From: Candidatus Izemoplasma sp.
Lineage (GTDB): Bacteria; Bacillota_I; Bacilli_A; Izemoplasmatales; Hujiaoplasmataceae
Direction: 5' to 3'
NCBI GenBank assembly: GCA_021736305.1
Contig: JAIPGD010000008.1
Coordinates: 1-40,666, forward strand
Length of the DNA stretch: 40,666 nt
The position numbers were made by a program, and so were the translations under genes. Position 1 is the stretch's first letter. Every line of letters starts with the position of its first letter. Positions 31,672 through 34,668 of the stretch are shown here, one piece after another. A model generated the notes under the pieces. The model was not told the origin of the DNA, searched no databases, and saw only the letters and a program-made list of their open reading frames with translations.

Positions 31672-32796
31672 TTATTCAGTTCTAACTGGAAGAATTAATT
31701 GAATTAATCCTTTATCTTTAGAATTTTCAATAATGAATGGTCTAATTTCTCCAGTAAATTTTACAAAAACTTCATTAGAATCAAAAGTTTTTAATGCATC
31801 AAGAAAATATCGAGAACTAAATGCTATTTTAAGTGTTGATGATGCTTCAACTTCTATTGGTTTTATTTCTTCAATAACTTTACCTATTTCTGGTGAATTT
31901 GATGTTATTTCTATTTCATTATTTGCTTTTAAATTTAATTTTACTATACTACTAATACTATCTTTAATTGATAACAATGAAGCTCTTTCAACAGCAATTG
32001 CTAAATCACTTGTTTTAAATTTTAAAACAATTGGAAATTCATTAGGAATTAATCTTGAAGTTTCAGGAAAACTTCCATCAAGTAATCTTGATTGAAATAA
32101 AATATTCCCATATTCAAAAATAATTGATTTTTTATCTAAATGAATTAATATTTCTTCTAAATCAAGTTCTAATATTTTATATAACTCATCTAAACTCTTC
32201 CCTGGTATAACTACATTCATTTTATCAAAGTTTTTAGTTACATTTATCTTTTTTTGACTCAATCTAAATGAATCAGTTGCGATTGCAGTTAACTCATCAT
32301 CACTTACTTTGATATTAACCCCTGTTAGGATCGGTCTGTTTTCAATTGTTGACGTTGCGAAGGTAGTTTGTTTGATAACAGATTTCATTAGCTTAGATTC
32401 TAATTTAATCGGTTCATCTTTTAAATTAAAATCAATATTAGGATAATCTTCAACATTCAATAAATTCAATGATAAATCAGTATGTTTAGAAGTGATTTTT
32501 AAAACGCTGTTATCAATAACTGAAAATTCAACGATACCTTTATCTAATTTTCTAACAAATTCAACAAATACTTTACCAGGTATTAAAACTTCACCTTCAT
32601 CTTCAATATTTAAACTTTCATCTTTGATAGAAATTTTAATTGATATATCTGAATTACTTGTCAATAAAATAATTTCATTATCATAAACTTCTAATTTAAT
32701 ACCTTGTAGATAAGGTGCTGGTGTTTTTGTAGATAAAGCTTTTTGTGAAATAATTATATTATTTAACAAAACATCGGTATTGATTGAAAAATTCAT
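31672..32796 (-). CDS. dnaN: DNA polymerase III beta sliding clamp
   Basis: The replication processivity clamp, 374 aa in three repeated domains, close to the family length of about 375-380. Typical segments are LLTSNSDISIKI, GEVLIPGKVFVEFVRKL, TFATSTIENRPILTGVN, AIATDSFRLSQKKI and the C-terminal IQLILPVRTE where partner peptides bind. AGGAGG precedes the ATG. It follows dnaA on the same strand across a 146-base gap with its own promoter (-10 at 32894-32899) and a DnaA box. Confidence 0.97.
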   Translation of the reverse strand: MNFSINTDVLLNNIIISQKALSTKTPAPYLQGIKLEVYDNEIILLTSNSDISIKISIKDESLNIEDEGEVLIPGKVFVEFVRKLDKGIVEFSVIDNSVLKITSKHTDLSLNLLNVEDYPNIDFNLKDEPIKLESKLMKSVIKQTTFATSTIENRPILTGVNIKVSDDELTAIATDSFRLSQKKINVTKNFDKMNVVIPGKSLDELYKILELDLEEILIHLDKKSIIFEYGNILFQSRLLDGSFPETSRLIPNEFPIVLKFKTSDLAIAVERASLLSIKDSISSIVKLNLKANNEIEITSNSPEIGKVIEEIKPIEVEASSTLKIAFSSRYFLDALKTFDSNEVFVKFTGEIRPFIIENSKDKGLIQLILPVRTE

Positions 32797-32942
32797 AAAT
32801 AGCCTCCTATATTATTTATATTAATTAATTATTATTTAAATTATTATTATTAGGGAGTGTTAACTTGTGGAAAACTATCATTCTAGCATAAATATTATAC
32901 CATATTTAGCGAAAAAAATACATTATTTATAAAGTTTATAAC
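32797..32942. other. dnaA-dnaN intergenic origin segment: DnaA box and TAA trios
   Basis: Read on the minus strand: extended -10 TGgTATAAT for dnaN (32894-32902), DnaA-box-like TTTTCCACA (32866-32874), a small GC cluster CTCCC (32853-32857), then four TAA triplets (32841-32852) leading into an almost pure A/T stretch to 32800. Box, GC cluster and TA[A/G] trios in that order are the features of the DnaA-trio unwinding element known in B. subtilis, which also lies between dnaA and dnaN. Assignment as the unwinding site is inference. Confidence 0.6.
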
Positions 32943-34316
32943 TTATTTTTTTCCACATTTAATTAACAATTTTTCAATGTCATTTTTGACACTATTATCG
33001 GTTTGTAAATAGTTAGAAATTTGTTCAATACTATAAATAACAGTAGAATGATCTCGACCATTAAATATTTGTCCAATTTTTTTAAAAGTAAGGTCATACA
33101 TTTCCTTAATTATATACATAGAAACTTGTCTAGCAAAAACATATTTCTTTTGTCTTCTTTTAGATAATAAATCAGTAGTATTAATATTATAATAATTACT
33201 TACAATATCAATAATATTTGTATAATTTGTTCTATCTATCGGTTTATTAGTAGCGTTTTTAGAATTAATAAGGTTTTTTAAAGCTTCTCTTGTATTTTCT
33301 ATTGTAAAATCATAATTAAAAGCAGTACAATAGAATAGAACTCTTTTTAAAGCACCTTCTAATTCTCTAACATTATTATCAAAAATACTAGCAATATATT
33401 CTAATATTTCATCAGATATAAGGTTTGGATCAGAAGTTTCAATATTTAATTTTTTCTTTAAAATTAATATACGATGTTCTAAACTAGGTTTATTAATATC
33501 AACTGATAATCCCCACTCAAATCTAGAGGTTAATCTTGACATGATATCAAACAATTCTGAGGCTGGTCTATCTGAAGTAATAACTATTTGTTTATTGTTG
33601 TCTTTTAATTTTTCAAAAATCTTAAAAAATTCTAATTGAGTTTTAGTTTTACCAGCTAAAAATTGAATATCATCTACTAATAAAATATCAATGTTTTCAT
33701 ATTTTTCTGAAAATTCGTTAAAAGATTTTTTTTGAGCTGCATTTCCGTAATCTTCAATAAATTGATCAGTTTTTACATAAAGAACTTTTTGGTTTGGGTT
33801 ATTTTCTAAAGCAAAATTACCAATACATTGCATTAAATGTGTTTTACCTAAACCAACGTTACCAAATATATATAAAGGATTAGCAAATGAAGCGGGTTGA
33901 TCCGCTACTTTTGTTGCAGATGTATAAGCTAATCTATTACTTGGTCCAACAACAAAATTATCAAAAGTATAAGTATGATTTAAACCAGTTTTATATTTAT
34001 TTTCAATATCTTCTTCAGGAGTATTTATCTCATATTGAGTTTCTTTTTTTAATTCTTGAGTTGCTTGATCTTTAGTAATAATTTTAAATAGATATTGTTG
34101 GTCAACATATTCATTTAAGATGTAATTAAGTCGATTTAAATAAAAATTATCAATTTTATTTTTTATGTATGAATTTGGAGCAATCAAATAAATATAATTA
34201 TTGGAAACTTTGAAGATATTATCAATAACGGCAAAATGTTCGTTATAAGTGTCATCATCAAATGTTAACTGTAATTTTGATTTTACTTGATTCCAAATAT
34301 TTTCAAAATTTTCCAT
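32943..34316 (-). CDS. dnaA: Chromosomal replication initiator DnaA
   Basis: Binds DnaA boxes and unwinds oriC. The 457-aa protein has domain I (about 1-80), a linker, AAA+ domain III with Walker A GNVGLGKT (152-159) and Walker B ILLVDDIQFLAGK, the arginine-finger region and domain IV with the DnaA signature GRDHSTVIYSIEQI near residue 424. GGAGG precedes the ATG. A promoter candidate on the minus strand is TTGAAA (34374-34379), 17-bp spacer, TATTAT (34351-34356), adjacent to a DnaA box, consistent with autoregulation. Confidence 0.98.
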   Translation of the reverse strand: MENFENIWNQVKSKLQLTFDDDTYNEHFAVIDNIFKVSNNYIYLIAPNSYIKNKIDNFYLNRLNYILNEYVDQQYLFKIITKDQATQELKKETQYEINTPEEDIENKYKTGLNHTYTFDNFVVGPSNRLAYTSATKVADQPASFANPLYIFGNVGLGKTHLMQCIGNFALENNPNQKVLYVKTDQFIEDYGNAAQKKSFNEFSEKYENIDILLVDDIQFLAGKTKTQLEFFKIFEKLKDNNKQIVITSDRPASELFDIMSRLTSRFEWGLSVDINKPSLEHRILILKKKLNIETSDPNLISDEILEYIASIFDNNVRELEGALKRVLFYCTAFNYDFTIENTREALKNLINSKNATNKPIDRTNYTNIIDIVSNYYNINTTDLLSKRRQKKYVFARQVSMYIIKEMYDLTFKKIGQIFNGRDHSTVIYSIEQISNYLQTDNSVKNDIEKLLIKCGKK

Positions 34317-34379: not shown

Positions 34380-34630
34380 AAAAAAATGTGGAAAACTTTT
34401 TGTTTAAACAGTTACTAACACATAAAATGTGGAAAACTTATGTAATGCTAACGCGATAACCTTAACTTTTCCACATTTTCACATAATACTTATTCTTACA
34501 AAATGTTAAATAAATATTTATCCACATGGAAAAAATAAAAAATAAATTTAATGAATGATAACTAAATTTATGATAAAATAGAGTAAAAATAAAGAAATTT
34601 TTGATTTTTTAAACTCAAAAATTTGTAAAC
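34380..34630. other. Replication origin (oriC) region upstream of dnaA
   Basis: The 393-base gap between dnaA and rpmH holds no gene but four DnaA boxes: TGTGGAAAA at 34387-34395 and 34428-34436, TTTTCCACA at 34467-34475, and the perfect TTATCCACA at 34518-34526. The first two face one way, the last two the other. Beyond the last box is a 90-base A/T-rich stretch (34530-34620). Position between dnaA and rpmH is the classical low-GC origin. Confidence 0.9.
34595..34624. repeat. 10-bp inverted repeat beside the A/T-rich origin stretch
   Basis: AAATTTTTGA (34595-34604) and TCAAAAATTT (34615-34624) are perfect complements with a 10-base spacer, ending 16 bases before the rpmH -35 element. It may be a cruciform-forming origin element or simply a structure in the A/T-rich region. 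Confidence 0.6.
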
Positions 34631-34639
34631 TGAAATAAG

Positions 34640-34668
34640 TTGACATAGTCTATAAAATTAAGTATAAT
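34640..34668 (+). promoter_or_regulatory. Consensus promoter of rpmH operon
   Basis: Perfect sigma-A hexamers: TTGACA (34640-34645), 17-bp spacer, TATAAT (34663-34668). Confidence 0.93.

Follow-up and report, generated by a model that had tools for sequence, protein, structure and literature searches.

The dnaA–dnaN intergenic region

The window analysed here, a 40,666-nucleotide stretch (contig JAIPGD010000008.1) from Candidatus Izemoplasma sp., belongs to a genome of 1.5 Mb in 83 contigs that is 96% complete. Among the matches to its DnaA, one from a "Bacilli bacterium" MAG is 96% identical and one from a "Candidatus Izemoplasmatales bacterium" MAG 82% identical, and others are labelled Tenericutes, Izimaplasma and Acholeplasmataceae, which points to an uncultivated member of the Izemoplasmatales lineage. 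Both dnaA and dnaN are on the minus strand (Table 1), and dnaN homologues directly follow dnaA in 68 of 70 loci, L001 included. Read along the minus strand from 32874 to 32841, the gap between the two genes holds a DnaA box, an 8-nt spacer (AGTTAACA), CTCCC and four TAA triplets, which lead into an A/T-only stretch; the GGAGG between this stretch and the dnaN start codon is the dnaN ribosome site. A sequence-only reading of this DNA had already described the arrangement with correct coordinates, although its CTCCC "cluster" is one short C-rich run, 8 nt from the box.

Four further boxes lie upstream of dnaA, between it and rpmH, as that reading had proposed, and the presence of boxes on both sides of dnaA supports the bipartite origin that it deduced from them. 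It was also right to distinguish this layout from a simple dnaA–rpmH origin, but two-sided boxes are ordinary: at least two are found upstream of dnaA in 191 of 211 loci. The rpmH gene opens what we take, from the open reading frames, to be an rpmH-rnpA-yidC-jag group, which begins at 34.7 kb and runs in the opposite direction to dnaA. A perfect sigma-70 promoter (TTGACA-17-TATAAT, 34640–34668, plus strand) borders the upstream boxes and faces rpmH.

Table 1 Features of the dnaA–dnaN region and of the region upstream of dnaA.
Feature	Position	Strand	Remarks
dnaN, 374 aa	31672–32796	−	ATG at 32796; adjoins the element on the other side from dnaA
A/T-only stretch, expected duplex-opening site (putative function)	32808–32840	−	from sequence
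Triplet tract TAA x4, TAATAATAATAA	32841–32852	−	plus strand reads TTATTATTATTA
C-rich linker CTCCC	32853–32857	−	from sequence
Degenerate second (tandem) box AAGTTAACA	32858–32866	−	5 mismatches to consensus; overlaps box 1 by 1 base
DnaA box 1 TTTTCCACA	32866–32874	−	1 mismatch to TTATCCACA; 13 nt before the first TAA
Extended −10 TGGTATAAT, putative dnaN promoter	32894–32902	−	consensus match; 19 nt upstream of box 1
dnaA, 457 aa	32943–34316	−	TIGR00362 above cut-off; aligned to PDB 8btg
Upstream DnaA box TTTTCCACA	34387–34395	−	in five congeners, in one as TTATCCACA
Upstream DnaA box TTTTCCACA	34428–34436	−	identical across five congeners
Upstream DnaA box TTTTCCACA	34467–34475	+	in five congeners, at most 1 change
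Upstream DnaA box TTATCCACA (consensus)	34518–34526	+	drifts among congeners

Two more box-like sites were seen at the end of dnaA. The last dnaA codons, which encode the C-terminal CGKK, create a reverse copy of TTTTCCACA at 32949–32957 (plus strand), which may be a by-product of the conserved DnaA C-terminus. Just past the dnaA stop codon is a box-like GTTATAAAC (32931–32942, minus strand), and a box or box-like sequence occupies the same place in L016, L018, L020, L023 and L070 of family f1; it is perhaps a third site of the element. Elsewhere in the window, a 201-bp unit is present in two tandem copies at 1614–2024, inside an open reading frame spanning 41–2161.

An extended −10 (TGNTATAAT) occurs within 60 nt upstream of the box in every locus with a called tract of families f1 (29/29) and f3 (35/35), in none of 4 f2 loci, in 52 of 95 other class-level loci and in 10 of 49 loci of a further set of DnaA matches. 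Because this conserved −10 sits just upstream of the box, the element falls within the predicted dnaN leader, and RNA-level selection on the tract could therefore contribute to its conservation; DnaA bound at the element could hold dnaN transcription down, or opening could be aided by transcription. Rfam returned no RNA family at gathering threshold between 28000 and 40666. The window genome carries DnaD-domain and DnaI genes and DciA was not found in it (96% complete), so helicase loading is probably Bacillus-like.

Origin position and conservation of the element

GC skew, the first check that the sequence-only reading had named, puts the origin at the dnaA locus. In two single-contig congeners, each sampled in twenty 20-kb stretches, the sign changes at dnaA from negative before to positive after: from −0.18 at 1.58 Mb to +0.20 at 0.01 Mb in G001 (dnaA at 1.62 of 1.65 Mb), and from −0.13 at 1.25 Mb through +0.05 at 1.29 Mb to +0.22 at 1.37 Mb in G004 (dnaA at 1.287 Mb). 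One G004 sample, at 0.01 Mb, has the wrong sign for the positive arm (−0.04). The resolution is too coarse to pick a side of dnaA: the cumulative-skew minimum of the window spans 33.5–34.75 kb, its 34.5-kb bin being nearer the region upstream of dnaA, and the local skew minimum of G004 lies about 3 kb on the dnaN side.

The lone window sequence is weak evidence for an unwinding element, as it exceeds chance only just, and the case depends on comparison. DnaA boxes with at most 1 mismatch number 20 in the whole window, with 13.6 expected, and 3 of 100 shuffles reach 20; boxes with the TCCACA core and at most 1 mismatch number nine, six of them between 32866 and 34526. A strict pattern (box with at most 1 mismatch, 10–15 nt, then four (T/C)AA or (T/C)TA triplets) was found once in the window and in none of 200 mononucleotide shuffles of one strand-length each.

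We also compared the region with the published BUS rule (Pelliciari et al., PMC8287927). Box 1, with 1 mismatch, is within the 2 allowed, while the optional second tandem box, for which 4 are allowed and which occurs in 57% of the published BUS predictions (PMC8287927), is lacking by this measure, since AAGTTAACA has 5. The spacer (at most 16 nt, commonly 10–13) is 12 nt to CTA or 13 nt to TAA, and the CTA frame gives five consecutive 3'-NAN-5' trios, where at least three are asked for. Of the repeated 3'-GAT-5' consensus the first trio is at most an instance, the remainder being TAA on the box strand. Location at a chromosome origin is indicated by the GC-skew switch in the two single-contig congeners and by the cumulative minimum of the window. 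Four of the B. subtilis trio-contacting residues N187, I190, I193, R202, E228 and K222 are replaced; none of the trio-contacting DnaA residues is universally conserved (PMC10721633). The region also contains, opposite the box strand, the E. coli-type ssDUE motif TT[G/A]T(T), in the plus-strand sequence TTATTATTATTA at 32841–32852, and several TnnT on the box strand, the DnaD recognition element (DRE) being defined opposite the DnaA-bound strand. As the A/T-rich window has 99 matches to the BUS rule on its two strands, a match proves little here and was discarded as evidence for the element; the NAN rule by itself tells little in an A/T-rich genome. In 22 of the 68 nearest loci the rule calls no BUS, owing to CAA interruptions or weak boxes.

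Comparison across relatives was based on two DnaA searches, one positive in 73 of 81 genomes (G000 and 80 relatives) and the other in 292 of 295 genomes of a phylum sample, none of them more distant than class level. The resulting 250 DnaA loci were reduced to 219 distinct dnaA–dnaN regions by removal of 16 loci without dnaN downstream, 3 outside the length limits and 12 duplicates. Most share the same intergenic architecture: a box or tandem boxes, a short linker, triplets, an A/T stretch and a ribosome site. In 169 of the 219 regions the box is followed by five triplets of which four or more fit Y-N-A, compared with 206 of 4380 mononucleotide shuffles. The spacer is mostly 12–14 nt, with 12 and 13 the commonest lengths, so the conservation of box-to-trio spacing that the earlier reading had proposed to look for is borne out. 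When a box with at most 2 mismatches and four consecutive Y-N-A triplets were required, the dnaA–dnaN gap contained the pattern in the sense direction in 134 of 231 loci (12 duplicates included) and in antisense in 1; the 400 nt upstream of dnaA contained it, on either strand, in 9 of 211 loci, and this strict scan found no second unwinding element in those 400 nt of the window.

Among five congeners the triplet block TAATAATAATAAT is invariant (13 invariant columns), and a lack of trio conservation, one of the two results named as speaking against the sequence-only reading, did not appear. The −10 is likewise invariant, the letters of the CTCCC linker vary, and box 1 has 2–3 mismatches in the other four congeners (3 in L002). 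In many relatives a tandem box is recognisable at the same 8-bp offset, for example ATTTCCACA in L041. L100 (family f13) keeps TTATTACTA between dnaA and dnaN, with the nearest box degraded to 3 mismatches; its relatives L093–L095 have several boxes. The tract caller places the tract of some loci wrongly, as in L093, whose assigned type does not change.

Two tract classes and the DnaA pocket

The element is of an ordinary kind in an expected place. What the sequence-only reading had missed is a lineage-wide variant triplet code. We distinguish type A tracts, (C/T)TA, from type B tracts, (T/C)AA, both read on the box strand and both beginning about 13 nt after the box. Among the 219 regions 134 are type B, 72 type A and 6 mixed, and none was called in 7; the window lineage is type B, and loci with a Bacillus-like DnaA are mostly type A. 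The tract of the cultured Acholeplasma laidlawii (L151) is also type B. The middle letter of the triplet is T in 264 cases, G in 21, A in 10 and C in 3 for type A, and A in 487, T in 42, C in 18 and G in 2 for type B. At position 1 of triplets 3 and 4, type B tracts have T 191, C 53, A 22 and G 2 times. The trios of B. subtilis (PMC10316083) and C. difficile are type A, and the sequence next to E. coli box R1 is type B; B. subtilis is represented here by its DnaA (8btg) and its printed trio, the fetched loci being from outside the genus Bacillus. We found no published account of TAA-type trios in this lineage, though the supplements of PMC8287927 may tabulate them. L217 and L218 have both classes within one tract (TAA TAA TTA TTA TTA). 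A bias in strand composition was considered as the source of tract type and judged unlikely, the downstream mean A/(A+T) being 0.61 for type A and 0.66 for type B.

In B. subtilis DnaA, N187 contacts the middle A of the trio and R202 and E228 contact the first G; at the middle base G or T is harmful and C tolerated (PMC10721633). Alignment of the window DnaA to 8btg gives the replacements N187E, I190G, I193A and R202S, with K222 and E228 kept; the N196 position is K in smaller alignments and a gap in larger later ones. Across the loci, those with N187 and R202 comprise 38 type A, 2 type B and 5 without a call, and those with E187 comprise 105 type B, 3 type A, 3 mixed and 2 without a call. D187 occurs with both tract types (15 A, 7 B and 2 mixed without R202; 1 A with it), as does N187 without R202 (11 A, 5 B, 1 mixed), and other residue combinations account for 15 B and 4 A. 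An earlier tally, with fewer loci and a stricter run rule, pointed in the same direction.

Correction for relatedness leaves this association without significance. A FastTree phylogeny of DnaA, built with the residue columns removed, covered the 206 typed loci together with E. coli and B. subtilis (208 rows). It shows 13 changes of tract class, and 12 independent pairs were compared. E187 agreed with tract class in 3.0 pairs, disagreed in 0.1 and showed no difference in 9.0 (median p 0.25). The best state tested, not-I190, gave 4.5 with, 0.4 against and 7.1 without difference (median p 0.125); loss of R202 gave 1.1, 0 and 10.9, and loss of I193 gave 1.2, 2.5 and 8.3, with a median p of 1 for both. 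As the median p was at least 0.125 for every residue state tested, the link between residues and tract is not established; the raw association may mostly reflect shared ancestry, and the pair test has little power. Residue 187 or 202 as the sole determinant of tract type is not supported, given these tests and the exceptions L090, L107 and L227 (E187 with type A) and L180 and L208 (N187 and R202 with type B). Tract class can flip with no change at residue 187. Flips are seen between the related loci L107 and L106, L090 and L082–L086, and L084 and L081.

The proposed unwinding element and its alternatives

We consider it very probable, from sequence comparison, that the region from 32874 to 32808 is where a bipartite oriC, with boxes on both sides of dnaA, has its basal unwinding element, because the triplets recur across the regions, the block is invariant in congeners and GC skew switches at dnaA. 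Order, spacing, conservation, the location at the skew switch and the DnaD-domain and DnaI genes are observed. DnaA binding, melting, looping and helicase loading would then proceed as follows. DnaA bound at 32874–32858 would be placed about 13 nt from the triplet tract, and an ATP-DnaA oligomer, starting at the box, would grow along one of the two tract strands with three bases per subunit. The oligomer would melt the A/T stretch at 32840–32808, where DnaD, DnaI and the helicase would load, and the boxes upstream of dnaA may raise the local DnaA concentration by looping. The tract of this lineage is a variant form: its box strand reads (T/C)AA where the Bacillus type has (T/C)TA, with the register unchanged.

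The sequence-only reading had matched the order of these features to the B. subtilis element. Position, order, spacing, conserved triplets and the bipartite layout do fit a basal unwinding system; the match fails at the tract itself, TAA x4 with the middle base of each in-register triplet swapped, and at the four replaced DnaA residues. The B. subtilis BUS (boxes 6/7, G/C linker, DnaA-trios, incC) resembles the window in its dnaA–dnaN location, its direction, its order of box, linker, triplets and A/T stretch, a spacing within the published 10–13-nt peak, further boxes beyond dnaA, and the DnaD-domain and DnaI genes. It differs in its box-strand triplets, which are mostly CTA/TTA and not TAA as in the window; the window also has a very weak second box and one good box near the tract, compared with seven in incC, and replacements at DnaA residues 187, 190, 193 and 202. 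The origin of C. difficile is likewise bipartite, and its oriC2 trio, CACCTACTACTATTACTACTATGA, also stands between dnaA and dnaN. Its triplets are (C/T)TA, however, and DnaA-dependent melting was shown in vitro there.

The right DUE of E. coli oriC has box R1, 14 nt and TAA TAA, with CTCTTATTAGG, containing TTATT, on the other strand, and E. coli DnaA is also without N187 and R202 (Q and K). E. coli differs in that oriC is far from dnaA and only two TAA stand beside R1; its oriC also has an IHF-bent box array, our comparison covering the box–tract layout and the DnaA residues. The T. maritima DUE (TTATT motif and TAG eTrio) shares TTATT and trio-like triplets near boxes, but has another box sequence, and the TAG repeats do the binding there (PMC10316083). 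The DnaAs of E. coli and T. maritima recognise different single-strand motifs, by a mechanism that remains to be elucidated (PMC10316083), and various sequences may be recognised by DnaA homologues (PMC10721633).

Which strand and frame DnaA would grip is less certain. We favour, at about even odds, the proposal, made by analogy, that DnaA grips the plus strand, 5'-TTATTATTATTA-3', in the manner of E. coli TT[A/G]T(T) and with an altered initiator-specific motif. With (C/T)AA triplets in an unchanged register, the opposite strand in this lineage reads like the E. coli motif, which is carried by the bound strand in E. coli (PMC10316083). The box–tract geometry is the same as that of E. coli, and the T/C variation at position 1 of the type B triplets mirrors the freedom of the E. 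coli motif, TT[G/A]T(T), to take A or G. A canonical DnaA-trio could alternatively begin one base earlier, reading CTA ATA ATA ATA ATT on the box strand and 3'-GAT-TAT-TAT-TAT-TAA-5' on the bound strand, with middle A throughout. This frame follows the published 3'-NAN-5' rule with a spacer of 12 and opens with the favoured 3'-GAT-5', but we regard it as unlikely: its supposed middle A would be the most variable base, with middle G in about 20% at triplets 3 and 4 in relatives, a base that in B. subtilis reduces both growth and strand separation (PMC10721633), and 44 of the 134 type B loci have A or G directly ahead of the first triplet. If DnaA instead gripped the box (minus) strand, the tract would read AAT AAT AAC in relatives from 3' to 5', the canonical order of purine, A or C, and pyrimidine. 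Type B middle letters on that strand are indeed A and less often C, the two bases whose amino group is required by B. subtilis DnaA (PMC10721633), TAG is mixed with TAA there in L088, L097, L112, L114, L132 and L238, and Glu at 187 would retain a hydrogen-bond acceptor. Such a strand swap seems distinctly unlikely, as box direction and spacing are those of type A, so that the oligomer would run towards the boxes and not away from them, and as E. coli, with the same layout, binds the TT[G/A]T(T) strand (PMC10316083).

Two further explanations were weighed. The repeat could be a DRE, made of 5'-TnnT-3' pairs on the box strand, with opening due mainly to boxes and A/T content. TAATAATAATAAT does contain several TnnT on the strand on which the B. 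subtilis DRE lies (PMC10201434), and the window genome has a DnaD-domain gene; we nevertheless think this improbable, since pairs of TnnT should arise often in A/T-rich DNA, TnnT is broken by the CAA interruptions, and DRE and trios, which overlap by nature, can hardly be separated. Least plausible, to the point of being highly improbable, is that the tract plays no part in the origin and acts in the dnaN leader or in translation, or reflects drift in A/T-rich DNA, with unwinding at the A/T stretch at 34.53–34.62 kb. The predicted leader position given by the conserved −10 and the frequency of the published pattern by chance in the window speak for it. The nearly constant distance between tract and DnaA box across the 219 regions and the shuffle control speak against it, as do the poor conservation of the upstream A/T stretch, which is hardly alignable among congeners, and the coincidence of the tract with the place of the experimentally studied B. 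subtilis and C. difficile trios.

A wider reading is doubtful, taken as a whole: the DnaA code for origin single-stranded DNA would have two states, with an amino middle base on the bound strand (Bacillus-type, (C/T)TA along the box strand) or a keto one ((T/C)AA along the box strand, as beside R1 in E. coli), both in the same register from the boxes; residues 187, 190 and 202 of the DnaA initiator-specific motif would co-evolve with the state, and the Izemoplasmatales–Acholeplasmatales would be a large natural switch to the keto state within a Bacillus-type origin. The lineage combines a Bacillus-type origin layout and helicase-loader genes with triplets that resemble those of E. coli and with an altered pocket in DnaA, and it has relatives that carry the other triplet class.
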